The notes under the pieces: model-generated
Database searches by the model: none
What the model was told of the DNA's origin: nothing
What the model saw: only the letters and a program-made list of their open reading frames with translations
Shown here: positions 1,638 to 23,867 of the stretch, in pieces
How the letters are laid out: each line of letters opens with the position of its first letter
Position numbering within the stretch: position 1 is the stretch's first letter
Made by a program: the position numbers and the translations under genes
Virus record (IMG/VR): IMGVR_UViG_3300034012_001831
Location: 1-24,734 of that record
From: a virus
Reading direction: 5' to 3' (one strand)
DNA length: 24,734 nt

Positions 1638-1708
1638 CGCGAGGAGCTCGCGACTCGCTGCGTTTTGGCGAAAATAAAGCGTTTTTCGCTCAACTTTAGT
1701 TAAGTTGA
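1638..1708 (+). promoter_or_regulatory. Regulatory gap with three inverted repeats before terS
   Basis: The 138-nt gap between 1588 and 1727 holds three inverted repeats. CGCGAG/CTCGCG spans 1638-1652 with a 3-nt loop. GCGAAAA/TTTTCGC spans 1668-1689 with an 8-nt loop. TCAACTT/AAGTTGA spans 1690-1708 with a 5-nt loop. The third overlaps the TTGACT module at 1705. TTGAGACA at 1601-1608 repeats the first eight bases of the window. I see no convincing -10 box or U-tract. The position, just before the packaging genes, suits a late promoter with operators; that is inference. Confidence 0.4.
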
Positions 1709-1726
1709 CTCGGGCGGCAGTCTCAC
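1705..1726 (+). repeat. TTGAC-start module, copy before terS
   Basis: TTGACT (1705-1710) is followed by 16 nt and then the terS ATG at 1727. This is one of ten similarly spaced sites in the window. Here it overlaps the right arm of the inverted repeat at 1690-1708. Confidence 0.45.
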
Positions 1727-2239
1727 ATGACTGTCGCCAGCCAACTTGCCGAAGCCAAGGGCATCACGATCCAGCGGGTCAGCCAACTGAAGAAGAAAGG
1801 CTGTCCGCTGGACACTTTGGAGAACGCCGTCGCGTGGTATGAGTCCAACGTAACGGGAAACCGCCGCGCCAGGCGGTCAGTGTCCGCGTCCGCATCGCCC
1901 GAAGACAGCACGGCCGCCGGCCGCGTCGAACAGGCGCACGCGATGGTGGGCAAAAACTACGCACTCTGGCAGGGGGCCGCCGAGCAGGGTCAGGTCCGCG
2001 AGGCGTGCGAGCTTCAGAAAGCCTATTCGCTCTCTTGTAAGGACGCCTCGGCGGCCGAGGCCGAGTTCATCGAGTGGCAGAAGCGCGTCGGCGCTCTCAT
2101 GGAAAAGTCGGCTGTATTGTCCGCATTCGATGCGGCGTTTGATTCGTGCCTTAAACGCCTGCATCGGGACTACCCCGACGCCGGCAAACTGGTTGCTGAT
2201 GCGTGTCAGATTTTCTCGGACAAATTAAGAGCAGCCTGA
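1727..2239 (+). CDS. terS: Terminase small subunit
   Basis: Small terminase subunits bind phage DNA at the packaging site and load the large subunit. This 170-residue protein has an N-terminal helix-turn-helix (about residues 6-30, around GITIQRVSQLKKKGCP) like Nu1/gp1-type small terminases. A Ser/Ala-rich linker (about 45-65) and a long helical C-terminal part for oligomerisation follow. It lies directly before the GpA-type large subunit and overlaps it by 37 nt. There is no strong Shine-Dalgarno, but the TTGAC module lies 16 nt before the ATG. The call rests on the N-terminal motif, size and position. Confidence 0.75.
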   Translation: MTVASQLAEAKGITIQRVSQLKKKGCPLDTLENAVAWYESNVTGNRRARRSVSASASPEDSTAAGRVEQAHAMVGKNYALWQGAAEQGQVREACELQKAYSLSCKDASAAEAEFIEWQKRVGALMEKSAVLSAFDAAFDSCLKRLHRDYPDAGKLVADACQIFSDKLRAA

Positions 2240-3942
2240 CGGCCGACGATGTCGGCGCCGCCATTGCCCGCAAAGCCCAACCACCGCCGAAGCAGGGTGT
2301 GGTCGAGTGGGCCGAGGGCAATCTGACGATCGGTAACACCGCGCACTTGCACGGGCCGTATCGGACGCGGGAGACGCCTTACATCCGCGAGCCGCTCGAG
2401 GCTTTCGGCAACGAATCCATTCGGCGCATGGCGCTGGTCTGGGGCGCCCAGACGGCCAAGACCACGGCCATCCTTGCGGGTATGGGGTATCGGCTCGACC
2501 AAAACCCGGCGCCCGCGCTTTGGGTCATGCCGTCCACGCACCTGGCGCGGTCGTTCAGCAAGTCGCGCTGGCTGCCGATGGTCGAAAGTTCGGACGTTTT
2601 GAAGACGCACAAACCCGACAACGCCGACGATCTGACCATCCTCGAACAGCATTTCAAAGGGATGAGCGTGTATTTCGTCGGCTCGAACAGCCCGGCCAAC
2701 CTTTCCAGCCGATCCATCGCGCTCCTGATGATGGACGAGATGGACAAATTCGCGGCACAGTCGGGCAAAGAGGCGAGCCCGATCCAGCTTGCCGAGGCGC
2801 GCACGGCGACATTCCCGAACCATTTGATCGTTTGCACCTCGACGCCAACCTATGAGGACGGCGCGATCTGGACCGAATGGGTCAAAGGAGACCAGCGCCG
2901 CTATTTCCTGCCGTGCCTCGGGTGTGGCGAGTGGCAGTTCCTCGAGTGGAAGAATGTGCGCTGGGACGCCGAGGCCAAGCAGGACAACGGGGTATGGAAC
3001 ATGGCGCGGGTGGCCGAGACCACACGCTATGCCTGCCCGAAGTGTGGGCACCTCCACGAGAACGCCGACAAAAAGACCTGGCTCGAGCGCGGCGAGTGGC
3101 GCGCAACGGAGTTTGCCGCCGAGGCCGGCCGCCGCAGCTATCATCTCTCCTCGCTCTACTCGCCCTGGCGCACTTGGCCTGATCTGGCCGTGAAGTATTT
3201 GCAGGACTACGAAGCCCCGGGCGGATTGCAGGATTTCTTGAACCGGGAGATGGCCGAACCGTGGAAGCCGCAAGGGGCGCTCATCACGACGGCCATGATC
3301 CGCGACCGCGTGGATGCTTCGCCTCGCTACATGATAGGCACCGCGCCCGAGGGCAAGATGATCGGCCGCCTCATGTCCATCGACGTGGGCCAGACGGAAA
3401 TGTGGTGGATTGTCCGCGAGCTCCACGAAGACGGCAGCAGCTACCTCCTCGATTACGGGGCGATGGTCGGATGGGACGGGATCATGGACAAATTCAAGCA
3501 CTACAAGTGCTATCGCGGCATCGTGGACGCGGGCTACGCGGCCAAGACCCCGGCGGGCGTCTACGATTTCGTTGCCAAGTCGGGCGGGCTCTTTGTCGCA
3601 GCCAAGGGGCGAACCGTCAGCCAGGGATTGCGCGAGCCCTACAAGTTCCAGCAAATCGTGTCGGCCGGCGCGGTGCTGTGGGCTGTGCAATTCGACGCGC
3701 ACTTCTGGCAGGCCCGACTCTATCACGACATCCTGCGGGACGGGCGGGGCCGGTGGTATCTGCCCCGGGACATTGCCAAGGATTACGTCGGCCAGTTGCA
3801 GGGCGAGGCGCTCATCGAGAAAGACGGAGAATCCAAGTGGCAGCGACTCGGGCCGAACCACCTTGCCGACTGCGAGAAGATGGCCCTCGTGCTGATCGAC
3901 TCGATCATGGCGCAGTTCAAGGCAACCAACGCGGCTGCTTGA
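2203..3942 (+). CDS. terL: Terminase large subunit, GpA family
   Basis: This is the ATP-driven DNA packaging motor with nuclease activity that cuts concatemers and fills the prohead. The 579 residues match the usual size for lambda gpA-like terminases. A Walker A-like GAQTAKTT is at 81-88. Walker B IALLMMDE is at 172-179. A coupling motif CTSTPT is at 211-216. A zinc-binding insert carries C238/C241 and C278/C281. The C-terminal nuclease begins near D394 in SIDVGQTE, with more acidic residues to the C-terminus (NHLADCEK). The start is GTG at 2203, inside the terS end; no better in-frame start precedes the conserved part. Confidence 0.95.
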   Translation: MSDFLGQIKSSLTADDVGAAIARKAQPPPKQGVVEWAEGNLTIGNTAHLHGPYRTRETPYIREPLEAFGNESIRRMALVWGAQTAKTTAILAGMGYRLDQNPAPALWVMPSTHLARSFSKSRWLPMVESSDVLKTHKPDNADDLTILEQHFKGMSVYFVGSNSPANLSSRSIALLMMDEMDKFAAQSGKEASPIQLAEARTATFPNHLIVCTSTPTYEDGAIWTEWVKGDQRRYFLPCLGCGEWQFLEWKNVRWDAEAKQDNGVWNMARVAETTRYACPKCGHLHENADKKTWLERGEWRATEFAAEAGRRSYHLSSLYSPWRTWPDLAVKYLQDYEAPGGLQDFLNREMAEPWKPQGALITTAMIRDRVDASPRYMIGTAPEGKMIGRLMSIDVGQTEMWWIVRELHEDGSSYLLDYGAMVGWDGIMDKFKHYKCYRGIVDAGYAAKTPAGVYDFVAKSGGLFVAAKGRTVSQGLREPYKFQQIVSAGAVLWAVQFDAHFWQARLYHDILRDGRGRWYLPRDIAKDYVGQLQGEALIEKDGESKWQRLGPNHLADCEKMALVLIDSIMAQFKATNAAA

Positions 3943-3958
3943 CACAAAGACCGAGGGC
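3939..3958 (+). repeat. TTGAC-start module, copy before gpW-like gene
   Basis: TTGACA (3939-3944), which includes the terL TGA stop, is followed by 14 nt ending CCGAGGGC and then the ATG at 3959. This is one of the clearest copies. Confidence 0.55.
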
Positions 3959-4222
3959 ATGACCGACGCCTCGATGCTGGCCTCCGTTTTCACGCCCAGC
4001 GAATTGTCCCAACTGAAAGCCTCCTGCAAAGCGCAGATTCTTGCGGGCGGGGCTTCGCAAGCGTTCGTTGTGTCAAGCAGCGTGGGCGGGCGCTCTGTCA
4101 CGCTTCAGCAAACCTACAACGCTTGGGATATGCTCGGCCTGATTGAAACGGCGCTGGCGATCAATGCCGGCACGGTGGGCAACAGCCGCGTCACCCAAGT
4201 CCGCTTTCCGAACCGCACCTAA
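3959..4222 (+). CDS. gpW-like head-tail connector
   Basis: This 87-residue protein lies exactly between large terminase and portal, where lambda W lies between A and B. Lambda gpW joins the filled head to the tail and is 68 residues. This protein has a similar plan: an N-terminal helical part (about 8-28), a central strand-rich part with a GGRSVTLQQ segment, and a C-terminal helix (about 58-70). GAGGG precedes the ATG. Its stop TAA (4220-4222) shares one base with the portal start. The call rests mainly on position and size. Confidence 0.65.
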   Translation: MTDASMLASVFTPSELSQLKASCKAQILAGGASQAFVVSSSVGGRSVTLQQTYNAWDMLGLIETALAINAGTVGNSRVTQVRFPNRT

Positions 4223-5748
4223 TGGCTAAACCGACCAAATTCGTTGATCGTCTCGCCGCGCGCTTTGGCTTTTCGCGCATGATCGAAGCCGTGAACCACC
4301 GCAGCGAGGAGCGCGGCTGGGTCTACGCGCAGGCGCAGGATAGCAAAGTCGATCTTTCCTCCTATGACCGCACGCGCCTGATGGCGTTAAGCCGCAAATG
4401 CTTTTACAACAACGCCATTGTGCGCGGGGCTGTCAGGGATAAAGCCCTGTATTCTGTCGGCTCGGGCATCGGCATCCGTCCGCAGGCCATGACCGGCGAC
4501 CAAGAGTGGGACGATGCGGCCGAGGCATGGTGGGAAAATTGGTCGCGGCAGCCCGAGATCAGTGGCCGCCACGATATGCGCGGCCTGCAAATGCTGGTCT
4601 CGGAAGCTATCGACCGCGACGGCGAAATCTTTGCCATCCTCACCGCCCGGCAAGACGGCGCTCCCGCCGTCCAGATTGTCGAAGCCCACCGCATTGAGTC
4701 GCCCGACACGGCGGCCAACAACGGCGGCGTGGTGGACGGCGTGAAGCTCGACAAGTTCCAGCGTCCGCTCAGTTACTTCATCGGAGAAGGCGACGAATAT
4801 CCCCGCCGGCATCGGGAGATCAAAGCCGAGGCCATGCTTCACGTCTTCGAGCCTGAGCGCGCCGATCAAGTGCGCGGCTATCCGGCTGTCGGTGTGGCGC
4901 TCAACTCCATCTTGGACCGCGACGAACTTCTACGATTTGAAATGATGGCGGCCAAGGCAGGCAGCAGCATCGGCCTGGTCATCAAAAACAACACCGGCAC
5001 GATCGGCGCCGAAGGGTTCTTTGGCGATCTGAGCAAAGACAGCAACGGCAACCTAACCCGCGAATCCATGTTCGGCGGCGGTTTGGTGCCTCGCCTCAAG
5101 ACCACGGAAGACATCCAGAGCTTCCAGATGAACCGCCCGAACGAGAAGCTCGATAAGCACCTCGAGCAATACATTCGCGCGGCGGCCATCGGCCTCGGGC
5201 TGCCGTATGAGTTTGTTTGGGACACGTCCGCTGTCGGAGGTGTCGCGCAAAGATTTATCATTCAAAAAGCCGCGCGTTGTTTTGCGGGCCGCCAGGATGT
5301 CCTGATCAACGCCTTCCTCAATAAGTTGTGGGGCTACGCCATCGCCAACGCCATGCGCCGGCGCGAACTTCCGATGAATCCCAACTGGCGCAACGTCGGT
5401 TGGCAGACCCCGCGCTCCATTACCGTGGACGTTGGCCGCGAGGCCGCAGCACGCCGGGACGATGTAAAGGCGGGTCTAATGACGCTTTCCGATTTCTTTG
5501 GCGAGCAGGGCATCGACTGGAAAGAGGCGGTGTCGGAGATTGCCGCCGAACGTGAATTTGCCGCATCGCTCGGCGTCAGCATTGGCGTGGAGCAACCGCA
5601 GCCGCAGGCCGAGATTCTCCCGCAAGAAGAAGCGCCGGCCGCCGAACCGCCACAACTTTCCGAACCTACCCAACCGACCGAATTGGCACTGCCGAAAAAA
5701 CGCAAACGCCTCTATCGCCGGAAGAAGGTCGGAAAGCCGACTGCTTGA
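4222..5748 (+). CDS. Portal protein, lambda family
   Basis: The portal forms the dodecameric ring at the capsid vertex through which DNA enters and leaves. The 508 residues match the lambda gpB-type portal family in length and pattern. An N-terminal helical part is followed by a conserved stretch with RGAVRDKALYSVGSG (about 71-85), a core around residues 140-240 with VEAHRIESPD, and the clip/stem region with GLGLPYEFVWDTSAVGG (about 326-342). The C-terminal 45 residues are Pro/Glu-rich and end in a basic run. It overlaps the connector gene by one base. This is a clear head-module gene. Confidence 0.93.
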   Translation: MAKPTKFVDRLAARFGFSRMIEAVNHRSEERGWVYAQAQDSKVDLSSYDRTRLMALSRKCFYNNAIVRGAVRDKALYSVGSGIGIRPQAMTGDQEWDDAAEAWWENWSRQPEISGRHDMRGLQMLVSEAIDRDGEIFAILTARQDGAPAVQIVEAHRIESPDTAANNGGVVDGVKLDKFQRPLSYFIGEGDEYPRRHREIKAEAMLHVFEPERADQVRGYPAVGVALNSILDRDELLRFEMMAAKAGSSIGLVIKNNTGTIGAEGFFGDLSKDSNGNLTRESMFGGGLVPRLKTTEDIQSFQMNRPNEKLDKHLEQYIRAAAIGLGLPYEFVWDTSAVGGVAQRFIIQKAARCFAGRQDVLINAFLNKLWGYAIANAMRRRELPMNPNWRNVGWQTPRSITVDVGREAAARRDDVKAGLMTLSDFFGEQGIDWKEAVSEIAAEREFAASLGVSIGVEQPQPQAEILPQEEAPAAEPPQLSEPTQPTELALPKKRKRLYRRKKVGKPTA

Positions 5749-5765
5749 CATGAGCCCGTCCGAGT
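5745..5765 (+). repeat. TTGAC-start module, copy before protease
   Basis: TTGACA (5745-5750) includes the portal TGA stop and is followed by 15 nt and the protease ATG at 5766. The spacer ends CCGAGT, a variant of the usual CGAGGGC. Confidence 0.5.
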
Positions 5766-6614
5766 ATGGACGCGCTAAAATTTGAAGGCATCTCCGTCGC
5801 CACCGTTGGCCCGGCGCTCGGTCATGCCATGCTGGTGGACGATGTGACGCTGTTGCAGGCCGAAGCGGCCGGCCAAGTGGGCAGCCCGGTCAAAGTGTTT
5901 GTCGATCACGACGAAAGCATCGACAGCCTGATCGGCTTTCTCGCCAACTTCCGCATCGAGGAAGACCAACTGCGCGCGGACCTCGAGCTCCTCGGCTCAC
6001 ACCCCCAAGCGTCTTTCTATTCCGAGATCCTGACCAAAGCCCCGCAGCGCGTCGGCTTCAGCATGACCTTCAGCGGAACGCCTGACGAAAACGAAGACGG
6101 CACCCGCCTGGCGCGCGTTTCGGAACTGGTCAGCGTAGACCTTGTCTCGCGGCCGGCCGCCAATCCCGACGGAGTTTTTCGCGCGTTGCCGCAGGCCGAA
6201 AAGCCGGTCGCGGTTGACACCGCAGAAAAGGGCATGGATCAAAAATCCGCTCCTGAACAGTTCGACGCGAAGGCCGCCATCGAAGCGATGGCCGCCGAAC
6301 TCCGCGCCGAGATCAAAGCCGCTTTTGAAGAAAAAGCCGAAGTGGCACCCGAAGCACCCGCCCCCGCTCCCGTCGAGGACAGCAAAGCCGCTGAACTCGC
6401 CGCGAAGCTCGAAGCCGTCACCTCCAAGCTCTCCGTTTTGGAAGTCGAACTCGCCGCTCGCGGCGACAACGCCGTGACGGGCAACGGTTCCGCCGTTTCC
6501 GTCGAAGAGGCTTACGCCTCGGGCGATCGCTCCACCAAATTTGAAATCGTCCGCAAAGCCCTCGAGGCCGGCGATTTCGCGCTCATCTCCAAGCTCAAAC
6601 AATCCAACAAATAA
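5766..6614 (+). CDS. Prohead protease fused to scaffold domain
   Basis: The protease matures the prohead by cutting scaffold and often coat protein. Residues 1-140 read as an HK97-type prohead protease: a catalytic His in VDHDES (H48), a catalytic Ser in GFSMTF (S99), and the typical closing segment SELVSVDLVSRPAANPDG (119-136). Residues about 157-280 are helical and rich in Ala, Glu and Lys with a Pro-rich break near 194-203, as in scaffolding proteins. The fusion of protease and scaffold resembles lambda gpC with its nested Nu3, and an internal start is annotated separately. The major capsid gene follows after 6 nt. Confidence 0.9.
   Translation: MDALKFEGISVATVGPALGHAMLVDDVTLLQAEAAGQVGSPVKVFVDHDESIDSLIGFLANFRIEEDQLRADLELLGSHPQASFYSEILTKAPQRVGFSMTFSGTPDENEDGTRLARVSELVSVDLVSRPAANPDGVFRALPQAEKPVAVDTAEKGMDQKSAPEQFDAKAAIEAMAAELRAEIKAAFEEKAEVAPEAPAPAPVEDSKAAELAAKLEAVTSKLSVLEVELAARGDNAVTGNGSAVSVEEAYASGDRSTKFEIVRKALEAGDFALISKLKQSNK
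6214..6233 (+). repeat. TTGAC-start module inside the protease gene
   Basis: TTGACA (6214-6219) is followed by 14 nt ending AAAAGGGC and then ATG 6234, in frame with the protease. It sits within coding sequence, yet keeps the exact spacing of the intergenic copies. Confidence 0.6.
6234..6614 (+). CDS. Predicted nested scaffold protein (internal start)
   Basis: ATG 6234 is codon 157 of the protease gene, in frame. It is preceded by AAGGG and by the same TTGACA-14 nt module found before other genes. Translation from it would give a 126-residue, helical, Ala/Glu/Lys-rich protein lacking the protease domain, which is what a scaffolding protein looks like. Lambda makes its Nu3 scaffold this way from within gene C. 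The start signal is seen in the sequence; production of the separate protein is inferred. Confidence 0.65.
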   Translation: MDQKSAPEQFDAKAAIEAMAAELRAEIKAAFEEKAEVAPEAPAPAPVEDSKAAELAAKLEAVTSKLSVLEVELAARGDNAVTGNGSAVSVEEAYASGDRSTKFEIVRKALEAGDFALISKLKQSNK

Positions 6615-6620
6615 CTCATC

Positions 6621-7535: not shown

Positions 7536-7558
7536 GCACTGGTTTGTGTGTTCAAGCG

Positions 7559-7590
7559 CCCCGGGGCATCTGCCCCGGGGTTTTGCTTTT
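7559..7590 (+). terminator. Strong intrinsic terminator after major capsid gene
   Basis: A perfect 9-bp GC stem (7559-7567 with 7572-7580) closes a 4-nt ATCT loop and is followed by TTTTGCTTTT (7581-7590). It lies 23 nt after the capsid stop and 29 nt before the glycosyltransferase start. It should end most transcripts here and raise the ratio of head to tail proteins. Confidence 0.9.
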
Positions 7591-7597
7591 GGTGCGG

Positions 7598-7619
7598 TTG
7601 ACAAAAATGCCGTGCCCGC
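7598..7619 (+). repeat. TTGAC-start module, copy before glycosyltransferase
   Basis: TTGACA (7598-7603) is followed by 16 nt ending GTGCCCGC and the ATG at 7620. It lies just after the terminator. The 16-nt spacer resembles the minus-strand copy at 23846-23867. Confidence 0.5.
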
Positions 7620-9374
7620 ATGGAGAACACACAGCCCTCGTTGGCGCTGGTGGCGATTGCGGGCAACTGCGAGAGCTACGTCCGGCGGTTTATCGAATCC
7701 TTCCAGCGGCTCACGCCGCACATCTACATCGTCCGCGCCTGCGGCAGCCGAGATCCAGACAAGACCCTGGACATCGCCCGCGAAATGGGGTGCAAGGTCG
7801 GCGAATACAAGAACGCCGAGGCGCACCAATTCTGGGACCATGTGGACAACTTCGGCGCCGCCCGGCAAATGGCCGCCGACATGGCCGAGGCCGACGGCCA
7901 CGAGTGGCTCATGTGGGCCGACACCGATGACATCCTCGAGCCCGAGAGCGCTGACATCATCCGCGAGCATCTACGCATTACCGCCCCAGAAACTACGCTG
8001 GCGCTCGTTCCTTATCGTCTGACCAACAACGGCCTTAATCTCCTGCGGGAGCGCATCTGGCGGCGCGGCACGGCCGTCTGGGCGGACCCTGTGCATGAAC
8101 ACCTCGAGCCGGTGGACAAATCGGGCGACGGCCACGTCCGCTGGGAGGACTGCCGCATCGTCCACGCGCCCGACTCGCACAAAGACGAGGCCGACGGCAA
8201 GCAGGGCAACCAGCGCAACTGGCGCATCATCTCATCCATTCCCGACTTCGACAAAAACCCGCGTTGGCTTTTCTACGCGAGCCTCGAGCATTTCGGGTTC
8301 AAGGATGACGAGAACGGCATGGCCTACGCGGTCGAGGCTCTCAAAACGCCAGGGCTGGACGATAACGAGCGTTACGAGCTTTACCTTCAACTCGCCATGC
8401 GGACGCACGGCTTCGCGCCGAAAAAGTCGCTCCTGCATGAAGCCTACAAAGTGAGCCCGTGGCGCCGCGAAGCCTTGGCCCAACTGGCTGCCGTGTCGCT
8501 CGACAACAACGAGCCGCAAGATGCCTTGGCCTATGCCCGCGCTTTCATGGCGATCCCGGTGCCCGACGTGGTGCCGTGGACGCACCGCCCGGTGGTCTAT
8601 GGTTTCGGCGGGGTGGGGCTGTATGCCTGCTGCCTGCGCGCCAACGGCGATACCGAGAAGGCCGACAAGTTCGAGCTTGAGTGGTTCAAGAAGTGCGGCG
8701 GCAAGATTAGCGTGTGCCACCCGACGCGCGGCCGCCCGTTGCAGGCCGCCGAGACGCGCAAGAAGTGGCTCGAGGCCGCCAAAGATCCGCAGGCCATTGA
8801 ATACATCTTTGGGTTTTCGGCCGACGATACCGAAACGGCAGACATCTTGGGTCGATTCCGCCATGCGCAGTCTGCCGCCGGCAACCTGGACGCCGTGGGC
8901 GGAACGCTCGTCCAAAATTACAATGCCGCCGTGCGCGCAAGTAGCGGCAAAATCATCCTGACAATCCAAGACGATCTGGAACCCTGCCTTTTCTGGGACG
9001 AACTCATTTGGAAGGCGCTTGCAAATCACCTCAACAGGCCGGCCGTTCTCCGGGTAGGCGACGGCTACCGAAACGACGATTTGCTGATTACGTTCTGCGT
9101 CACACGCCCGACCCTGCGCGCCATGAATCACAACGGGGGCATTGTTAGCGATGAATATCGGGGCGTGTTTTGCGACAACGAGTTCACGCACCGGGCCAAA
9201 AAGAACGGATGGATCGTGCCAAGCGACATTGTCCTGCGGCACGAGCATCCATTTTTCAATCCGGCCGTCCCAACCGACGACATCTACGCCATAGAAAATA
9301 GCTCAGAGGGCTACAAGTTCGGCCTTGAAGTATTCCGCCGCCGCAACCCCGACGCCTTTGACTCGCAGGGTTAG
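7620..9374 (+). CDS. Two-domain glycosyltransferase, GT-A fold
   Basis: The protein probably transfers sugars from nucleotide donors. Residues about 8-150 form a family-2-like GT-A domain: the N-terminal strand LALVAIAGN, then WADTDD (about 99-104) as the acidic metal-binding motif. Residues about 160-340 include helical TPR-like pairs. A second GT-A-like domain starts near residue 360 (SVCHPTRGRP) and has IQDDLEP (about 448-454) as its acidic motif and a late RHEHPFF (about 540-546). It sits between capsid and tail genes, after a terminator. Likely targets are virion proteins or host surface sugars; the sequence does not decide. Confidence 0.8.
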   Translation: MENTQPSLALVAIAGNCESYVRRFIESFQRLTPHIYIVRACGSRDPDKTLDIAREMGCKVGEYKNAEAHQFWDHVDNFGAARQMAADMAEADGHEWLMWADTDDILEPESADIIREHLRITAPETTLALVPYRLTNNGLNLLRERIWRRGTAVWADPVHEHLEPVDKSGDGHVRWEDCRIVHAPDSHKDEADGKQGNQRNWRIISSIPDFDKNPRWLFYASLEHFGFKDDENGMAYAVEALKTPGLDDNERYELYLQLAMRTHGFAPKKSLLHEAYKVSPWRREALAQLAAVSLDNNEPQDALAYARAFMAIPVPDVVPWTHRPVVYGFGGVGLYACCLRANGDTEKADKFELEWFKKCGGKISVCHPTRGRPLQAAETRKKWLEAAKDPQAIEYIFGFSADDTETADILGRFRHAQSAAGNLDAVGGTLVQNYNAAVRASSGKIILTIQDDLEPCLFWDELIWKALANHLNRPAVLRVGDGYRNDDLLITFCVTRPTLRAMNHNGGIVSDEYRGVFCDNEFTHRAKKNGWIVPSDIVLRHEHPFFNPAVPTDDIYAIENSSEGYKFGLEVFRRRNPDAFDSQG

Positions 9375-9716: not shown

Positions 9717-9720
9717 AGCC

Positions 9721-10620: not shown

Positions 10621-11495
10621 TCCACCGCGAACTCGAATCCAGTTTTGCCACTTGGCTCGTCTCGGGCGTGAGCGGGACCAGCCTCTCGGGCGTTCCCATC
10701 CGTCATGCCGTGCCCGCCGATCCTCTGGCCCTGCCGTGCGTCATCGTGGCCTCGGCCGGCGCGGAGCTCCTCGAGGGCGGTGTGAGGGCAGCCAGCCGCG
10801 TCAGCATGGACTTTTCCGTCATGTCGGCGGCCAATGGTGGCCCCGGGTGGCAGACCGCCCACAAGAACCGCGTGGCCGCCTTGTCCCGCAGGCTGGACGA
10901 TACCAATACCAACGCCGCGCTGGCCTCGATCAATGGCGCGCAAACGGACTTCACGCTTTACGGCTGGCATCTGGTCGAACTTGCCGCCGAGGCCGAGCCA
11001 AACATCCAGACCGACACCATCCGCATCAGCCTTATCGCAGGAGATCGCATCGCCACATCCCCGACCGGACCGACGGCCACGCCGCAGAATTACAGCCTGC
11101 GGCACGAGATCGAGCAGATCGTCAGCGCCCACCTTGGCACCGAGCTCCCGTCGGCCGTCACCGACGATTATTCCGTCTATCCCTTCTATTCGGAAAACGT
11201 CGTGCCAGAGCGCCGGATCGTGGCCGCGTGTTTGGCCGCCGAGCGTCCGTTCCCGCAACTGGCCCGCTGGTCCGCGCAAGTCACCATCCACGTCATCACC
11301 CCCGGCATCTACGCGACAACGCACGACGAGGCCGTGCGTCAGGTGCAGGACACCCTGCGCGACCTCGTGGCCCAGGACTACACCTCGGCCAACGTCACTG
11401 TAGCCGGGATGCTCGAGACGGGCCACACGATCGACCGATCCGACAACCGCATCGTGGACGTGTTGGCCGTGACCCTCTATTGCCAGCAAAATTGA
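10617..11495 (+). CDS. Tail terminator-like protein with two tandem domains
   Basis: Tail terminators cap the tail tube during assembly and are usually about 130-150 residues. This protein has 292 residues and two halves of the same plan. Each half begins with a P-x-x-VIV/ERRIVAA strand, then a helix with an R/Q-x-x-L pattern, and ends in a beta strand pair (ISLIA near 140, VTLYCQQN at the end). Domain one is about 20-145 and domain two about 160-292. Similarity between halves is structural in feel, not high identity. Overlap with the gene before is 4 nt. The call rests on position and the double plan. Confidence 0.55.
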   Translation: MIHRELESSFATWLVSGVSGTSLSGVPIRHAVPADPLALPCVIVASAGAELLEGGVRAASRVSMDFSVMSAANGGPGWQTAHKNRVAALSRRLDDTNTNAALASINGAQTDFTLYGWHLVELAAEAEPNIQTDTIRISLIAGDRIATSPTGPTATPQNYSLRHEIEQIVSAHLGTELPSAVTDDYSVYPFYSENVVPERRIVAACLAAERPFPQLARWSAQVTIHVITPGIYATTHDEAVRQVQDTLRDLVAQDYTSANVTVAGMLETGHTIDRSDNRIVDVLAVTLYCQQN

Positions 11496-11511
11496 CATCG
11501 CCCCCGAGGGC
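11492..11511 (+). repeat. TTGAC-start module, copy before tail tube gene
   Basis: TTGACA (11492-11497) includes the TGA of the previous gene and is followed by 14 nt ending CCCGAGGGC and then ATG 11512. It is almost identical at its 3' end to the copy at 3939. Confidence 0.55.
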
Positions 11512-14706: not shown

Positions 14707-15279
14707 ATGTCCGACTTCGCGCAAATCCGATTTCTACCCAACAGGCCGCTCCTGCGCGAACTGTCTGCCGATCGTCTCAACACAATCCTGCAAGAGATCA
14801 AACGCAATAAGCCAAAGGGCGAGCGCGGCATTACGGTCAGGCAAGACGGAAACCAAACGTGGATCGGCCTTGCTGCTCCCACACCTCGCATCCCGCAACC
14901 CACCCACCCATTCCAGCTGACGCAAGTAAGCGGCGAAAACCCTGACGCAGTCTATGCGCGTGTCCGTTACGGCACGGTGAACGGGGAAAGACCAGAGGGC
15001 ATGAGCGTTGCAGACGAGCCGCCGTATGTGATCGAGCTAACCGTGAACACGGGCTACATTTTCCTCGGCGCGACCATCGCGGAAGAAACTTTCGAAATCA
15101 CCTCACTGTGGATTGACCATGCCGAGGAAATGCCAGAAGAGGAGGAGGAAGGCTTTGAGTTTTACCTTGAGATCGGCACTTTTGAAGTGACCGACAAAGT
15201 GGCCGTCTTTGCCCAGAGTGTGACAACGTCTTTGGCCTACATTCGGGCCGGGTTCATCAACCTCTGGGGGCAGGCTTAA
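14707..15279 (+). CDS. Hypothetical tail protein, 190 aa
   Basis: This 190-residue protein has an N-terminal helical part (about 15-40, ADRLNTILQEIKRNKPKG) and a Pro-rich bridge, then a strand-rich body. A run of acidic residues is found near 139-147 (EEMPEEEEEG). The N-terminal pattern is seen in small tail proteins that sit with fibres, but I cannot name a family. Its stop TAA shares one base with the next ATG. Confidence 0.6.
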   Translation: MSDFAQIRFLPNRPLLRELSADRLNTILQEIKRNKPKGERGITVRQDGNQTWIGLAAPTPRIPQPTHPFQLTQVSGENPDAVYARVRYGTVNGERPEGMSVADEPPYVIELTVNTGYIFLGATIAEETFEITSLWIDHAEEMPEEEEEGFEFYLEIGTFEVTDKVAVFAQSVTTSLAYIRAGFINLWGQA

Positions 15280-15965
15280 TGTTTATCTTTTCCTGTTTGC
15301 CGATCGAGTTGCTTTATTACGGGCGTGTTTTTCCGTTTCCGGTTGTTTGGCAAGCCACGATTGACTGGTCATTTTCGGTCGATGCCGAGCGTGTGGACTA
15401 CCCGCCCGGTCGCACAGAAACTACAACGCTCAGTGGGAGCGGTGGCGGAAGCATAACAATCGACTGCGACCCACACAGAGCAAACCGCCCAGGCATTACA
15501 AATGTGACCCCTGAGAGGTTTATTGTCACCCGCAGGATGGAAGCGATGGAAGAAGACTCGCAAGACATCAGGAGGTTTCAGTTGTATTGCGACCGATCGG
15601 CCATTGCGGGCGACTACTCGGTGACGCAAACCGTGGAGAAAGTCTACGATGACCCCAACACGCCGACCGAAACGACAACCCAGACAGAGGCGTCCGATGC
15701 CGTCATTGCTCCGATTTGGTTAATCATCGACCCGGAAACAGTCGTTTTGCAGGACATTTCCGTCATCTCAACAACAACCGACCAGACCCCCGCGTCGAGT
15801 TGGATGGCCCCGGATGATTGGACTTTTGCCCGCAGCGCCCTTTGGGAGCCACAGACTTTTGCCGCGACAAAAACGCCTGTCGAAATGGGGTATCAAACGG
15901 GCGAGGGCTGGGAGCAGTCTATCACGATTACGCTGACGAAATGGTCTGACCAGCCGGGGCTTTGA
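15279..15965 (+). CDS. Hypothetical tail-module protein, 228 aa
   Basis: The N-terminal residues 1-25 are aromatic and hydrophobic (FIFSCLPIELLYY), after which the protein is strand-rich with Thr, Ser and Asp repeats. The hydrophobic start has no basic residue before it, so a signal peptide is unlikely. The start overlaps the previous stop by one base. I do not recognise a family. Its TGA stop lies in the TTGACA at 15962. Confidence 0.55.
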   Translation: MFIFSCLPIELLYYGRVFPFPVVWQATIDWSFSVDAERVDYPPGRTETTTLSGSGGGSITIDCDPHRANRPGITNVTPERFIVTRRMEAMEEDSQDIRRFQLYCDRSAIAGDYSVTQTVEKVYDDPNTPTETTTQTEASDAVIAPIWLIIDPETVVLQDISVISTTTDQTPASSWMAPDDWTFARSALWEPQTFAATKTPVEMGYQTGEGWEQSITITLTKWSDQPGL

Positions 15966-15981
15966 CACAGAGGCCGAGGGC
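15962..15981 (+). repeat. TTGAC-start module with lost ATG
   Basis: TTGACA (15962-15967) is followed by 14 nt ending GGCCGAGGGC, but the next codon is AGG (15982), not ATG. The AGGAG at 15982-15986 now serves as a Shine-Dalgarno for GTG 15993, in another frame. Confidence 0.5.
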
Positions 15982-15992
15982 AGGAGTCCTCC

Positions 15993-16526: not shown

Positions 16527-16527
16527 C

Positions 16528-17237: not shown

Positions 17238-17599
17238 GCGCCTGCACCACCTCACAAGCCGATCTCTGCTGGACGCGCGGCGACAGCGGACGCCTCGATG
17301 TCGCGGTCAAAGACGCGAGCGGCAATGCCTACAGCCTCGTCGGAGCCACGCTGTTCTTGACCGTGAAGAACGCGCTTACCGATGCGGATTCTGCCGCCGT
17401 CATTCGCAAGGAAGTCACCTCACACAGCAACGCAGCGGGTGGGATTTCCCATTTTGATCTTCTGACCACCGACAACGCCACGGCAGGAACGCGGTATTAC
17501 GATGTGCAGTTGAAAGATTCGACTAACAAAATCTACACGCTTTTCGGCGGCTTGTGGAAAGTCCTCTCTGACGTAACGACTCGCACCGCCCCGCTCTAA
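17234..17599 (+). CDS. Putative BppU-like N-terminal domain protein, 121 aa
   Basis: The 121-residue protein is strand-rich. The opening WTRGDSGRLDVAVKDASGN (about 13-31) and the middle (LVGATLFLTVKN) fit the BppU N-terminal/DUF2479-like pattern that plugs fibres onto a baseplate. It is directly before the large fibre gene (1-nt gap), which suits a fibre anchor. Overlaps the upstream gene by 4 nt. Confidence 0.55.
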   Translation: MSACTTSQADLCWTRGDSGRLDVAVKDASGNAYSLVGATLFLTVKNALTDADSAAVIRKEVTSHSNAAGGISHFDLLTTDNATAGTRYYDVQLKDSTNKIYTLFGGLWKVLSDVTTRTAPL

Positions 17600-17600
17600 C

Positions 17601-20600: not shown

Positions 20601-20618
20601 GAAATTACCAGAACCTAA
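17601..20618 (+). CDS. Tail fibre / adhesin with YadA-like head, 1005 aa
   Basis: This is the largest gene and probably binds the host. An N-terminal part (1-30) is followed by a short collagen-like Gly-Pro stretch (33-47). A repetitive shaft has His-x-His motifs near 115, 500 and 567 (HDH, HTH, HTH), which in trimeric phage fibres bind metal along the axis. The STADKTKLDGIASGAE segment (about 516-531) is a widespread fibre module. Residues about 750-855 carry YadA-head-like repeats with SxAxG and VAGG patterns. The last 150 residues form a strand-rich tip. Parts near 18100-18740 are AT-richer than neighbours, a sign of mosaic exchange. Confidence 0.85.
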   Translation: MAAYHKVEVSLNTNAVEVGVPSPQTVNVVVPTIGPAGPTGAQGPAGAGIETLTTQGDLLYRGASVASRLPIGTSGQVLKVANGIPAWGAESGAVTSVNGDTGAVTITPASIGAANANHDHQPSDVFADAAFVTQSGGSGTHGGIYIRNGSDNSKPVYENATTRSYIWWDSDLSKWFLTNKADVNLFEKSSSASFPWQATGQWSAVSPQAGSVEVDQANLFDVSDAAASNTIGLKTAKTGNASSTEVVLGNDTRLSDDRDPNLHAASHLPEGADEIFDQDLNTHDSPTFTGLAIEDAAAVDTTLIPVVGGASGYGLVQGVGGWNGSGIYFSNSTGGSDIGGLVYNNDTFYFGYPTAGENAAELSASGLNIYGNAVLRDNANGHSATFDAQSNLTDDQTYGLPDASGTLALTSDNADQFGSGAAADGYVLTSDGAGGAAWEAATGGGGGDTVSIESTAADILSVSSGAISADDAGADRIVYWNNTSNKLTYGTPSDVGAAASSHTHSDATQSVAGFLSTADKTKLDGIASGAEVNVNADWNASSGDAQILNKPTLGTAAAAATTDFAAASHTHSASAISDSTTAGRALLTAADAAAQRTSLGLAASATTDTTNASNISSGTLAPARMGSGTPSASNFLRGDGSWQTVAAGVSGSTSTDNAIVRADSTANTVQESALLLDDATTSTQANVAIRNNHSQTNSALVLTPKGTGSFIVGPKPDGTSTGGNSRGANSVDIQSSRSGASQVASGTRSIAIGTLNTASNTESVAIGYSATSSAIGTVSLGSQNNATANYAAALGGQSNQANGSDWSCVAGGLSNTASNNLSFVGGGTENTASGSHSFVAGGQNNLASATRSFACGERSVADRYGMFAHSAGRFAANGDAQRIRAVLRCTTSNATATELFLNGSSSRLTIPTNKIMAGIINIVGTKTDGATVAHYVRQFCVKNVSGTSSAVYTAQTIGTDNAAGTSITFNDPDTNGDALSISVTGIASENWRWVASVDAVEITRT

Positions 20619-20619
20619 T

Positions 20620-21102
20620 ATGAACGCCCCAAACTCCATGTTCACAGTCGGCCTTGTGCCGTCACAGCAACTCGTCAGCCTGCTCACCGATGACGAAGGC
20701 AACTGGCGCGATGTGCCAGATGGCGAAACGGTGTTGCCGCTAGTCAAAATCCCGAAACCCGAAACGGGCGCATGGGAGCCGAACGTGGTCTGGTTTGCTG
20801 ATCGCGTGGAGCGGCAGTGGGTCGAGGGAACGCCTGCGCCTGTGGCTACGATGACCGCCGAGCAGGCCGTCAGCCAATACTTTTCCGCCTACCAAATCGC
20901 CGCCCTGCAACGCCTTGAAATGGCCCTGCTCCAAGCAGGTAAGCCCCTCGGCCCGAAGATGACCGCCTGCAAGCAGTGGTTGGAGAGCGTGATGCTTGGG
21001 TGGGCGATGAATCCTGTCGCTGCACCAGCGGAGAGCTTTGGAAGTCCTACGGCTACGTTTGAAGAGGCCAGCGCGGAGGCTGTGGCTGACCTCGCCGGGT
21101 AG
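20620..21102 (+). CDS. Hypothetical fibre-associated protein, 160 aa
   Basis: The start at 20620 is chosen because it follows the fibre stop by one base; an earlier ATG at 20557 would overlap the fibre end. The 160-residue protein has a Trp-rich N-terminal half with WRDVPDGE and a helical C-terminal half. Genes straight after fibres often encode fibre-assembly chaperones or fibre tips; this is a positional guess. No family is recognised. Confidence 0.55.
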   Translation: MNAPNSMFTVGLVPSQQLVSLLTDDEGNWRDVPDGETVLPLVKIPKPETGAWEPNVVWFADRVERQWVEGTPAPVATMTAEQAVSQYFSAYQIAALQRLEMALLQAGKPLGPKMTACKQWLESVMLGWAMNPVAAPAESFGSPTATFEEASAEAVADLAG

Positions 21103-21105
21103 GCT

Positions 21106-21125
21106 TTGACACCCGCGAGCAGGGC
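21106..21125 (+). repeat. TTGAC-start module, copy before holin
   Basis: TTGACA (21106-21111) is followed by 14 nt ending GCAGGGC and ATG 21126. It is 3 nt beyond the previous stop. Confidence 0.55.
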
Positions 21126-21293
21126 ATGAACTACCTGCTTGAAAGGCTGACGGAAAACTCCACCTGGCGCGGCTTGGTCATGCTTGCCACCGCCCTCGGC
21201 GTGCAACTTGACCCCTCACAGGCTAACGCGATTATCGCGGTCGGCTTGGCGCTGGTCGGCCTCATCAACGTATTCCGCAAGCAGGCCAAGTAA
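21126..21293 (+). CDS. Holin-like small membrane protein, 55 aa
   Basis: Residues about 16-28 and 36-50 are hydrophobic (GLVMLATALGV, IIAVGLALVGLINVF) and the C-terminus is basic (RKQAK). This is a class II-like holin plan with two membrane segments. The gene is followed by a lipoprotein and an amidase, so it very probably forms the pore that starts lysis. The TAA stop overlaps the next ATG. Its small size means it is easily missed. Confidence 0.75.
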   Translation: MNYLLERLTENSTWRGLVMLATALGVQLDPSQANAIIAVGLALVGLINVFRKQAK

Positions 21294-21430
21294 TGCGCCC
21301 GGTCTTGTTGGCGCTGCTCGTGCTTTGCCTCACCGGCTGCGCGGGGATGAAGCTGGGCGCGGGCTATAACTTCGACGCGAAGCAGTTGTTTATCAACATC
21401 GAGAAGCCGTTGGACGGCTACAAGAAGTGA
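21293..21430 (+). CDS. Small lipoprotein, possible outer-membrane spanin
   Basis: This 45-residue protein has an N-terminal hydrophobic segment ending in a lipobox (LTGC, C16), so it should be cut by signal peptidase II and lipidated. The mature part is about 30 residues. In a lysis cassette it could be an Rz1-like outer-membrane spanin, but it lacks the Pro-rich body of Rz1 and I see no Rz partner. It is coupled to both neighbours by overlapping stop/start codons. Confidence 0.65.
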   Translation: MRPVLLALLVLCLTGCAGMKLGAGYNFDAKQLFINIEKPLDGYKK

Positions 21431-22068
21431 ACCCGCTGTGCTACCTAAAACGCTTATTCGCGCCATTGCTGCGTGGCCCACGACCGACCTTGCCGAACTC
21501 CTCGGACTCCTTCACACCGAAATCCACAGACGCGCCGAAGCCGATCGAGGCTCCCGCAAAAAGCAAGCAAAGCACAAAGGCGAAAAGCCCTAAGAGCTAC
21601 TCGGAAAAACTACTTAACACGCCTAATACCTCACAAGGCAGGCGTATCACGCCAAAGGCTATTGTATTGCATCACACAAGCGGCACTTACGCGGGCTCAG
21701 TCGCATGGTGCATGAACCCAGCCTCCCGCGTGAGCTACCACGCTATCGTGGCGAAGGACGGACGCCGCTCCACGCTGGCCGATCCAGACGAGCGGACATG
21801 GCACGCTGGCGTTTCGTCCTGGCGCGGAAGGCGTGACCTTAATTCGTGGAGCGTTGGGGCGGCGTTTGAGGGCGATACTTACGAGCGGCAACTTGGCGAA
21901 GACGAGATGGCGAGCATGGCGGAATACCTTGTGCCGATCATGCGGCAATACAACCTTGCCTTGGGCGATGTTACGGATCACCGCACGGTTAGCCCCGGCA
22001 GAAAAAATGACTTGAACCCGAAGGAACTGGCGCGGTTCAAGGCGTATCTGGCGCAGCGGTTGGCCTGA
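21427..22068 (+). CDS. N-acetylmuramoyl-L-alanine amidase (endolysin)
   Basis: Amidase_2-type endolysins cut the bond between muramic acid and the peptide stem. The 213-residue protein begins with GTG 21427, overlapping the lipoprotein stop (GTGA). Residues about 1-65 are a basic, Pro/Ser/Lys-rich leader. The catalytic domain shows IVLHHTSG (about 79-86) with the zinc His, SYHAIVAKDG (about 103-112), and VTDHRTVSPGRKNDLNP (about 181-197) with the second zinc His and the catalytic Lys/Asp region, a typical T7-lysozyme-like layout. The basic N-terminal leader may help export or wall binding. Confidence 0.9.
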   Translation: MNPLCYLKRLFAPLLRGPRPTLPNSSDSFTPKSTDAPKPIEAPAKSKQSTKAKSPKSYSEKLLNTPNTSQGRRITPKAIVLHHTSGTYAGSVAWCMNPASRVSYHAIVAKDGRRSTLADPDERTWHAGVSSWRGRRDLNSWSVGAAFEGDTYERQLGEDEMASMAEYLVPIMRQYNLALGDVTDHRTVSPGRKNDLNPKELARFKAYLAQRLA

Positions 22069-22073
22069 TTTTT

Positions 22074-22143
22074 GAGCGCGTGGCGGAATTAGACGCGAGG
22101 GGAACAACCCGGAAGGTGCAGGTATCGAATCCTGCCGCGCTCC
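22074..22143 (+). tRNA. Degenerate tRNA-Leu-like element
   Basis: A perfect 7-bp acceptor stem (22074-22080 with 22136-22142) encloses a D-stem (22083-22085 with 22094-22096) and a 5-bp T-stem (22118-22122 with 22131-22135). The D-arm closely matches bacterial tRNA-Leu but lacks the conserved GG of the D-loop. The T-loop has 8 nt (TATCGAAT) instead of 7. The anticodon arm is weak, 3 bp at best, and the usual T33 is missing, so no anticodon can be given. There is no encoded CCA. It may be a decaying phage tRNA, a tRNA mimic, or a remnant of an attachment site; the intact acceptor stem argues for some retained function. Confidence 0.5.
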
Positions 22144-22151
22144 ACATAACC

Positions 22152-22285
22152 TGTCGAAAAGTGCAAAGTTTTTGAACACATCGGCGGTGATATGTTTAAG
22201 GCTTCGACATTTGCTATACCCGAAAGGGAGCGGCCCAACGGCGACGACAGTGTTTGTGGCCTGACGGCGACACCGATCGGGTATA
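22152..22285 (+). ncRNA. Candidate structured RNA: two long-range inverted repeats
   Basis: Two perfect inverted repeats follow the tRNA-like element. TGTCGAA/TTCGACA pairs 22152-22158 with 22203-22209. TATACCCGA/TCGGGTATA pairs 22215-22223 with 22277-22285. Within the second, GGCC(C/T)(A/G)ACGGCGAC occurs twice (22232-22244 and 22258-22270). No U-tract follows on the plus strand. A short plus-strand reading frame (22192-22392) crosses the area, but its codons do not explain the repeats. The stems are seen; transcription and function are not known. Confidence 0.35.
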
Positions 22286-22340
22286 AAAAAGGAGGGGGGC
22301 GATTTGTCCTCGCCCTTAACCCGTGGATTTCGACGGGATT

Positions 22341-22362
22341 AAAACCCATCGGATTCGATGGG
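22341..22362 (-). terminator. Intrinsic terminator of the minus-strand operon
   Basis: On the minus strand, 2 nt after the stop of the 50-aa gene, CCCATCG and CGATGGG form a perfect 7-bp stem with a 4-nt loop, followed by TTTT (22344-22341). A weaker hairpin (GGGCGA/TCGCCC, 22297-22315) followed by a T-run farther downstream could act as backup. Confidence 0.7.
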
Positions 22363-22363
22363 A

Positions 22364-22516
22364 TTAGCGCCACCCCAAGGCAATCGCCATAAAGCCCGCG
22401 TTCGCGCAGGCATAAAACAGGAAGCACGTTCCGAGGGCTGGCTGGCCTTGGCTCCAGAATCCGTAGGCTGTCCAAAGATAGCAGACGGTGGTGATGACGA
22501 GGGGCCAAAAGGTCAT
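22364..22516 (-). CDS. Small membrane protein, 50 aa
   Basis: The start at 22516 is chosen because its ATG overlaps the upstream gene's TGA (ATGA), as at every other close junction of this operon. A start at 22573 would overlap that gene by 61 nt. The 50 residues hold two hydrophobic, aromatic segments (about 3-17 and 27-46, around FWPLVITTV and GTCFLFYACANAGFMAIAL). It is probably an inner-membrane protein. It is the last gene before the terminator. Exclusion or immunity roles are possible but not shown. Confidence 0.65.
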   Translation of the reverse strand: MTFWPLVITTVCYLWTAYGFWSQGQPALGTCFLFYACANAGFMAIALGWR

Positions 22517-22857
22517 TTGTCCCGCCTGTGCTGCCCAATGGAAATTTGCCCGTCCGTGAACTTGCTGGCCCATCTCGCAACCACGCTCGTCACGCGCTCA
22601 AAGTCGCGGATGTGCGTCTCGTCCACGATGGGGAAAACGCAATGCGCCATCTCATGCGCGATGATGCCCAGCATGTTTGTTTTGAGGGCGCGGGGGTGGA
22701 AATAGATTGTGCGGCGGCGGAAGTGACAGATTCCTTCACACAATTCTTTGCTCGGCGGGCGCTCGATGCGGACGCTCCACCATTCCCCGTCGAGCTTGAA
22801 GCGCATCCGAGGCACCCGCTTCTTGCGCTTGCGCGCCCCTGTGGCGCGCTTTTTCAT
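22513..22857 (-). CDS. HExxH metallopeptidase-like protein, 114 aa
   Basis: The protein has a zinc-protease signature in IIAHEMAHC, with H68, E69 and H72. A third ligand may be E80 or H82 in VDETH. The N-terminus is very basic (MKKRATGARKRKKR). The size and single-motif plan resemble short SprT-like or ImmA/IrrE-like peptidases; ImmA-type enzymes cut phage repressors. It directly follows a helix-turn-helix gene (ATGA overlap), which makes a regulatory peptidase attractive. SprT-like DNA-protein crosslink repair is the alternative. Confidence 0.7.
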   Translation of the reverse strand: MKKRATGARKRKKRVPRMRFKLDGEWWSVRIERPPSKELCEGICHFRRRTIYFHPRALKTNMLGIIAHEMAHCVFPIVDETHIRDFERVTSVVARWASKFTDGQISIGQHRRDK

Positions 22858-23108
22858 TTCAGTCGGTAGTGCGGCGTCAGGCGCGCAAAGCTGCCAACGC
22901 TCACGCGGAATTTTTGCATCTCACAGCGTCGATCCTCTACCGCAGCGCCCAGCAGGCGGGCCATCGTTGGCCGCGTCTTGTTGAGCTTGTCGGCAAGTTG
23001 TTTGGTGGTGAACCAGCCGGGGGGGATTATGTCCGTGACGGCGGGCGAGGCGAGGGCGGCGCACCATTGGGCGAGGTCGGGGTCGGGGCTGGCGGCGCGC
23101 TTGCTCAT
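22854..23108 (-). CDS. Helix-turn-helix DNA-binding protein, 84 aa
   Basis: ATG 23108 is chosen because it overlaps the metallophosphoesterase stop (ATGA). A longer frame from 23330 would lie inside that gene. Residues about 31-54 (GWFTTKQLADKLNKTRPTMA) form a clear helix-turn-helix, with a following wing-like part (KFRVSVGS). The C-terminus is LTPHYRLK, almost the same as the end of the neighbouring phosphoesterase. It may be a repressor or an accessory regulator of lysogeny. Confidence 0.7.
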   Translation of the reverse strand: MSKRAASPDPDLAQWCAALASPAVTDIIPPGWFTTKQLADKLNKTRPTMARLLGAAVEDRRCEMQKFRVSVGSFARLTPHYRLK

Positions 23109-23845
23109 AGCGGGAGCCTGTAGTGGGGGGAAAGAGTGACGAGGTTGACTGTGCAGGCGTTGTCGCAGTATTCGCCGTAGGCAAATCCGTGCCGCCATGC
23201 CAAGGTCTGCCGCCGTCCTGCGGCATACTCCATATCGAGGCGAGCCAGGCAACCGAGGTTGTAGCCGATGGCGTCGGCATGGGTGCGGGCGGGCTCCATC
23301 GCCACCCGGTGCGTGTGGCCGAAAACGCAATGCGCGCCGATGGTTTCTGCCGTGTCGCGGGCCGCGCTGACGTTAAACAAAGCGCCGTGCAGGAAGGCTG
23401 TGCCGCCCAGATACCGCACCGAGTCGCGGGCCATGCCGCGATAGGGGATGATCTCGGTTTTGTATTTGGCGAGGTTGTCGTGGATCTTCGCCATGACCGC
23501 GCCCGCCGCGTAGGCCACGACCTGATTGGCGCTATGGGTCAGGGCAACGGCACGGGCCTCGTGGTTGCCGTGGAAATACATGGTGGGCCGCATCTCGTGC
23601 AGGAACGACAACCCGGCGAGCAGATCGTCCATGAGGGACTCGGCGCGGTCGGGGTCATCGGGATCACGCCGAGCGCCAGCGCGCAGGCAGGCAAGGTCGA
23701 TGGCATCGCCGAGGTGGATGCGCTGGTGCGGGTTGTAGCGATCGAGGAAAGTCAGGAACGCTTCGCGGGCCTTCGGGTCGATGTCGGAGCCGTGGGAGCA
23801 GGTCGCCGCCGCCCACTTTTTCCATTTACGGGTGATCGTCGCCAC
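23105..23845 (-). CDS. Metallophosphoesterase, 246 aa
   Basis: The calcineurin-like fold hydrolyses phosphate esters, often on nucleotides or nucleic acids. Motifs in order: SHG (18-20) in place of the usual D-x-H, HLGDAID (44-50), GNHEAR (93-98), LHG (152-154) and GHTH (176-179). The first metal-ligand Asp appears as Cys 16 (C-S-H), unless the nearby Asp 21 takes its role. The start is GTG 23845, with TTGACA 16 nt upstream on this strand. It is the first gene after the integrase (35-nt gap). Substrate unknown. Confidence 0.85.
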   Translation of the reverse strand: MATITRKWKKWAAATCSHGSDIDPKAREAFLTFLDRYNPHQRIHLGDAIDLACLRAGARRDPDDPDRAESLMDDLLAGLSFLHEMRPTMYFHGNHEARAVALTHSANQVVAYAAGAVMAKIHDNLAKYKTEIIPYRGMARDSVRYLGGTAFLHGALFNVSAARDTAETIGAHCVFGHTHRVAMEPARTHADAIGYNLGCLARLDMEYAAGRRQTLAWRHGFAYGEYCDNACTVNLVTLSPHYRLPL

Positions 23846-23867
23846 GCAAGGGCGAACGGGGTGTCAA
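23846..23867 (-). repeat. TTGAC-start module on minus strand
   Basis: On the minus strand, TTGACA (23867-23862) is followed by 16 nt and then GTG 23845 of the metallophosphoesterase. This copy shows the module is not limited to the plus-strand late genes. Confidence 0.45.

Follow-up and report, generated by a model that had tools for sequence, protein, structure and literature searches.

In the leader of phage T7 gene 10, a short element called epsilon, located upstream of the Shine-Dalgarno (SD) position, is said to enhance translation. The closest precedent for the element described here is provided by the Start Associated Sequences (SAS) of Cluster K mycobacteriophages, 13-bp repeats with the consensus GGGATAGGAGCCC that contain the SD core, sit at the ribosome-binding position and are found in 11 to 19 copies per genome 5′ of the starts of a subset of genes (PMC3203893). 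In the sections of that work covered here, its authors suggest that the repeat takes part in translation initiation, without settling what recognises it. Here, we describe a six-base element, TTGAC(A/T) (hereafter TTGACW), which precedes many genes of a tailed phage record with 60% GC and 24,734 bases (IMG/VR record IMGVR_UViG_3300034012_001831; this whole stretch is referred to as the window). Comparison with related phages suggests that TTGACW is likely a phage-borne translation-initiation element, serving mainly late-type genes and distinct from the SD sequence.

Like epsilon, TTGACW is located upstream of the SD position, but it has another sequence and is repeated genome-wide whereas epsilon belongs to one gene. 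With SAS, as described in the covered sections of PMC3203893, it shares the character of a short oriented repeat that is linked to a subset of starts in many copies and in one orientation, and that is conserved across subgroups; in both cases, the upstream stop codon sometimes falls within the repeat and function is unproven. By contrast, TTGACW is 6 bp long with a kept core of TTGACA/T instead of the 13-bp SAS consensus, is devoid of an SD core, and lies about 20 nt upstream of the start. Against the 11 to 19 SAS copies per genome, 32 long virus records of the phages studied here have 4 to 10 motif-ATG pairs on the coding strand (0 to 2 on the opposite strand), and the nested in-frame use reported below is not described for SAS in the same sections. 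L5/Cluster A stoperators, said there to act in transcription regulation (PMC3203893), are likewise scattered short repeats yet are untied to start codons. A search of titles and abstract openings, mostly without subscription literature, found no report of a TTGACW start motif.

The window matches PHROGs families for the large terminase subunit (TerL), portal, major head protein, tape measure, lysis amidase and integrase, with a weaker match for the terminase small subunit (phrog_57, E 1.1e-5). Its plus strand contains 10 TTGACA and 4 TTGACT, and in 10 of these 14 cases an ATG follows after 13 to 17 nt (N13-17), compared with a mean of 0.56 and a maximum of 3 in 500 dinucleotide-preserving shuffles. 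A first-pass annotation of the sequence had listed ten copies and judged the frequency of TTGACA before start codons to be far above chance, and both this judgment and all ten coordinates proved correct (Table 1). On the minus strand, none of five TTGACW is followed by ATG at N13-17 and two are followed by ATG or GTG at N14-16 (23867 and 20541). The 20541 match, which has GTG and lies inside a plus-strand gene, is probably due to chance. Likewise, two of the ten plus-strand pairs are probably not gene starts: the copy at 502 spans codons 2 to 4 of a gene starting at 498, and the copy at 15361 leads to an out-of-frame ATG within the open reading frame (ORF) 15279-15965. The copy at 15962, listed with an AGG at N14 in place of a start codon, does have this AGG, and its gene starts further downstream. 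Judged by its orthologs, it is a true member of the set; we count it and the minus-strand copy at 23867 as real because the orthologs that were found keep the motif. In the case of gene 15993, these orthologs have TTGACA at N13 (the G085 prophage, see below), N17, N20 and N25.

For a wider comparison, relatives were drawn from two scans, using the best 80 loci of each among the matches listed. Clade A comprises the window plus 73 loci whose TerL is 62 to 100% identical to that of the window (L009-L050, L052-L082). Clade B comprises 84 loci, namely L083-L091 (TerL 40 to 47% identical to the window) and L200-L274 (75 loci, 56 to 99% identical to L089). The control set consists of 79 prophage loci in bacterial genomes (L093-L171, TerL 26 to 40%). 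In clade A (74 loci), ATG is found at N13-17 after 321/396 TTGACW on the terminase strand versus 1/116 on the other strand, and the corresponding counts in clade B are 179/354 versus 13/267; in the control prophages, the two strands are alike (20/248 versus 20/272). In clade B, the motif is nearly always TTGACA (178/259) and hardly ever TTGACT (1/95), and an unbiased 6-mer scan of clade B ORF starts ranks TTGACA first, with 114 distinct contexts versus 8.5 at control positions. Because related records repeat one another, distinct contexts were counted beside the raw numbers: clade A has 171, in 49 groups by first residues, and clade B has 113, in 43 such groups.

The spacing is fixed for GTG starts as well, and the motif turns with gene orientation, including that of the minus-strand gene at 23845. 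The bases flanking the core are poorly conserved, none exceeding about 0.7 bit. The idea, raised in the first-pass annotation, that the module could mark a recombination boundary finds no support in this pattern, in which six bases are kept while the adjoining ones vary. A spacer ending in GGGC, which had also been pointed out, does recur among clade A sites, reaching 1.2 bits at -2; it is less pronounced than the motif itself, and clade B lacks it.

A particularly informative copy is the one at 6214, which has the coordinate and spacing first assigned to it but does not precede an ordinary gene; instead, it is nested in ORF 5766-6614, upstream of an in-frame ATG. We found this arrangement in 60 clade A loci, representing 33 distinct sequences with a variable linker. 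All 33 read GTT GAC at the motif and retain the in-frame ATG; in the remainder of these ORFs, GTT accounts for 28% of Val and GAC for 69% of Asp codons. The clade B counterpart of this ORF, about 30% identical, has the same nested arrangement 218 to 274 open codons in. In L083, where the spacing is N15, the TTGACA encodes Leu-Thr; a spacing of N17 places it, by arithmetic, in the frame xTT-GAC. Since part of the clade B copies use another frame, it is the letters and not the amino acids that are conserved. Their location between the portal and capsid genes, together with a His/Ser pattern, points to a probable prohead protease in the outer ORF and to its scaffold in the inner frame; Pfam, PHROGs and PDB sequence searches did not confirm a protease. 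Nor did the predicted structure (mean predicted local distance difference test score, pLDDT, 46), which was too poor for a fold search; the C-terminal half is helical in this low-confidence model.

To follow the motif gene by gene, we used tblastn to transfer start positions from the window to orthologs, discarding matches that begin past residue 12, and scored TTGACW within 28 nt upstream. Some projected starts are visibly misplaced, which makes the count for gene 1727 an undercount; genes beyond 12658 had no countable orthologs in this projection, with most loci ending there. The motif is absent upstream of the projected starts of portal (0/73), major capsid (0/54), 10617 (0/38), TerL (0/29), 1010 (0/18) and 12658 (0/12). 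Portal, capsid, 10617 and 12658 start -4 to +6 nt from the previous stop in the window, a distance at which a ribosome that has just terminated can begin anew. Because the motif-less portal, capsid and 10617 genes sit at previous stops, the motif broadly tends to head units whose translation must start independently. As for the genes that do carry it, 3959 is predicted to be connector-like from its position and from the clade B gene that occupies this site (phrog_118), while the tail and holin-like assignments in Table 1 follow from position.

Table 1. Start-linked TTGACW copies in the window and the frame that follows the nested copy (Nx, x nt between motif and start codon)
Feature	Position	Strand	Spacer and start codon	Following gene	Orthologs with motif	Relation to other genes
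TTGACT	1705..1710	+	N16, ATG 1727	terminase small subunit	16/41 projected starts	
TTGACA	3939..3944	+	N14, ATG 3959	predicted small head-tail connector-like protein	73/73 loci	TGA is TerL stop
TTGACA	5745..5750	+	N15, ATG 5766	ORF 5766-6614	61/61 loci	TGA is portal stop
TTGACA	6214..6219	+	N14, in-frame ATG 6234	putative nested scaffold start		inside ORF 5766-6614
Putative nested scaffold-like frame	6234..6614	+				same frame as ORF 5766-6614
TTGACA	7598..7603	+	N16, ATG 7620	glycosyltransferase-like (phrog_13126)	30/47 loci	
TTGACT	9358..9363	+	N14, ATG 9378		39/39 loci	within coding end of upstream gene
TTGACA	11492..11497	+	N14, ATG 11512	putative major tail protein	34/34 loci	TGA is upstream stop
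TTGACA	15962..15967	+	N25, GTG 15993		5/5 sequences with match, 12 searched	TGA is upstream stop
TTGACA	21106..21111	+	N14, ATG 21126	putative holin-like protein, 55 aa	4/4 sequences with match, 12 searched	
TTGACA	23862..23867	-	N16, GTG 23845	metallophosphoesterase-like (phrog_221)	3/3 sequences with match, 12 searched	

The fixed spacing, the gene-following orientation and the overlaps with upstream stop codons or a coding end suit a signal in mRNA. This signal differs from an SD sequence, TTGACA being noncomplementary to the 16S rRNA tail of the prophage-bearing genome G085 (GGATCACCTCCTTTCT) and standing 13 to 17 nt from the start. Clade A starts 5′ of the terminase rely on another signal, as indicated by an SD-like core in 31/80 (versus 11/80 in a control stretch) and TTGACW in 1/80. 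At the five best-sampled motif genes of clade A, an SD-like core was seen at 28/254 projected starts in a slightly wider stretch; in gene order, the counts are 3/73, 10/61, 0/47, 14/39 (gene 9378) and 1/34. The clade A motif is mostly found where an SD-like core is absent, and the clade B motif often just upstream of one.

Among the three explanations offered in the first-pass annotation, a phage-specific initiation signal fits best because of the fixed distance, the strand match, the nested start, the conservation, and the absence of the motif at host starts of the one prophage-bearing genome described below. We consider it likely that UUGACA/U, about 20 nt 5′ of the start codon (usually 13 to 17 nt between), acts in this way, and that it would mark mostly late-type genes (packaging, head, tail and lysis by position) without handover from an upstream ribosome. 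The motif would act on the mRNA, where it may recruit or position the small ribosomal subunit upon recognition by a phage-encoded or phage-modified factor. More tentatively, and with the balance tipped somewhat against it, these phages might possess their own translation-start code, in which a six-base mRNA tag outside the SD position is recognised by a ribosome factor that the phage encodes or modifies, and steers ribosomes to late genes, the nested scaffold included, in hosts that barely use SD. If true, these phages would be an uncommon example of viruses using a start signal of their own for one class of genes, and the motif would improve gene calling in such uncultivated phages. How bacteria that are sparing in SD pairing still pick their start codons correctly is a question that a short, strictly kept, phage-borne and start-linked motif, with the nested start as a built-in control, renders directly testable.

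Several observations weigh against an initiation element. The loci are related, so that raw counts are not independent, and start codons are predictions throughout. The lateness of the motif genes is deduced from gene type, and a "late only" rule is not strict given the motif before the minus-strand metallophosphoesterase gene. Gene 12089 starts 16 nt past a stop yet lacks the motif (0/34), gene 9378 starts 3 nt past a stop yet carries it, the glycosyltransferase gene is without it in 17/47 loci, and the one ortholog family of gene 15993 has spacings up to N25. Because an SD-like core lies between motif and ATG in 57/114 distinct clade B sites, in addition to the 14/39 starts of gene 9378, the motif is not simply a replacement for SD and can also act beside it. 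A further point is the doubled frequency of -10-like boxes in clade A, considered below together with their rarity in clade B. No pairing partner of UUGACA was found in G085, whose 16S tail is canonical and whose lone GTCAA is internal to 16S, and no RNA-binding protein was evident among the shared families compared.

For this comparison, phmmer (E 1e-5) was applied to the genes of the window, of the G085 prophage, of three records from clade A and four from clade B, and of part of phage Moulinsart. Clade A, clade B and the prophage all have the large and small terminase subunits, portal, the gene 15993 family and an antisense artefact; nucleases, glycosyltransferases, the metallophosphoesterase, a small neighbour protein and more are common to two groups only. 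Nor did Pfam reveal an RNA-binding protein among 9 of the 11 called early genes of L021.

Some simpler schemes were rejected. 16S pairing has no plausible partner in G085, with its canonical tail and single inner GTCAA. Within the window, antisense RNA is disfavored because three of the four plus-strand TGTCAA copies (4076, 17041 and 20541) are inside ORFs and the fourth is the minus-strand motif. A hairpin in the spacer, searched by eye in clade A, is not general, and folding indicated a mild opening at the motif only. TTG is no alternative start codon, as its frame relative to the ATG varies among sites.

TTGACA is also the textbook -35 hexamer, and it could thus be a DNA element for transcription, namely, the -35-like box of a late promoter at each gene that is phage-specific or depends on an activator. 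Just upstream of the late-type block lies a gene with a weak match to the helix-turn-helix family HTH_Crp_2 (E 0.005, below the curated cut-off). Moreover, a TATAAT-like box (at least 4/6) at N15-19 follows 10% of distinct clade A sites versus 5% of control stretches further downstream; however, there is no such excess in clade B (5% versus 16%). With no consistent excess across the two clades, and without the -10 hexamer of a sigma-70 promoter about 17 nt 3′ of TTGACA, the initial impression that no -10 box follows and that a plain sigma-70 promoter is insufficient holds up. A distance locked to the start codon is unexpected for promoters, the transcript would begin within the gene, and copies stand 470 bp apart, one of them nested in an ORF. 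Overall, a promoter of this kind seems unlikely.

Quite unlikely, too, is an operator or stoperator at gene starts to which a repressor of the phage, or another DNA-binding protein, would bind. Such a role would agree with the integrase in the window, which makes a repressor likely, and with L5-type stoperators being repeats scattered along the phage genome, whose consensus contains TGTCAA, the reverse complement of TTGACA. Yet only six bases are strictly kept, with the low flanking information noted above, the spacing is tied to the start codon, and one copy is nested. An endoribonuclease cleavage site producing short-leader mRNAs, in line with the RNA processing site proposed in the first-pass annotation, would account for a short linear element whose distance upstream of the start is fixed. 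It fits the nested copy poorly, however, as a cut there would destroy the outer message; with several copies also overlapping upstream stop codons or coding ends, we regard it as very unlikely.

Searching 387 Verrucomicrobiota genomes with a TerL profile returned five matches at E up to 1e-60. In one of these, G085 (a 3.76-Mb contig), a prophage unit of about 34,860 bp adjoins host genes, with an integrase near the boundary (coordinates by arithmetic), and shows six distinct TTGACW-N13-16-RTG gene starts. The whole contig has 51 TTGACWN13-17RTG matches, nine of which fall in the phage region, three of these in a second, partial tandem prophage copy at the contig end (L281; 6,364 bp, 99.9% identical), which reflects a tandem lysogen or an assembly effect. 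Host genes were sampled as 360 kb in 18 stretches. Here, TTGAC showed no position preference before 587 ORFs, and TTGACW at N13-17 preceded 1/229 stricter starts. There was no SD excess either (34/229 versus 32/229 in a control stretch, counts blurred by taking the first ATG as the start). According to the covered portions of a 2024 survey, some Verrucomicrobia are SD-scarce with an intact CCUCC (PMC10783764); G085, lacking an SD excess and possessing a canonical 16S tail, resembles this group. The survey concerns host genes, and a TTGAC element is absent from the portions covered.

That the phages borrow a host-wide initiation signal is highly improbable, even though the motif reaches across two deep phage clades, a lone prophage besides them and perhaps another small group. 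In 145 Verrucomicrobiota genomes, counts at N20-24 about equal those at N13-17 in the rows that were compared by eye. The strongest excess, in G128 with 175 versus 108, is largely one repeated element, and G085 host starts show no preference for the motif. The repeated element of G128 (L181, L185, L186, L190; Verrucomicrobiota), TTGACACAGAAAGAACGGATCATG, is apparently mobile and is listed in at least 31 identical copies.

The host of the window is likely a member of the Verrucomicrobiota. A simple host story is weakened by L092, the best genome TerL match (41%), whose motif-bearing contig was binned with a Betaproteobacteria metagenome-assembled genome (MAG); by L093 and L094, Verrucomicrobia MAG contigs (TerL 34 to 40%) without motif-start sites; and by Moulinsart (TerL 31%, first 22.7 kb), in which 1/10 TTGACW stands at N13-17-ATG, before a 17-aa frame, and none at real starts. 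Among further phages and prophages near Akkermansia, as Moulinsart is, a Moulinsart-like prophage in G031 has no motif-start sites, and TTGACW stands at N13-17-ATG in 2/5 for L096 and 1/3 for L098, numbers that are too small for a judgment. The signal is not phylum-wide among phages. Three loci related by the terminase of the G085 prophage have nine TTGACW forward and none in reverse, three of them at N13-17. L317 and L318 (TerL 29% to that prophage) have all TTGACW on the terminase strand, some N9 to N11 before ATG, possibly another spacing variant.

Three further features of the window deserve mention. A tRNA-like sequence at 22074-22142 has matching 7-nt acceptor arms and a degenerate middle, with no match by ARAGORN or Rfam. 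On the minus strand at 22513-23845, the metallophosphoesterase gene is clustered with those of an 83-aa protein and an SprT-like protein (PF10263 just under the cut-off), and the first two of these proteins group with clade B proteins. Finally, gene 498-1004, which adjoins the late-type block upstream and begins ATGATTGACATT, is conserved in clade A; it is the L021 ortholog that gave the weak Crp-type match described above, making the gene a possible regulator.

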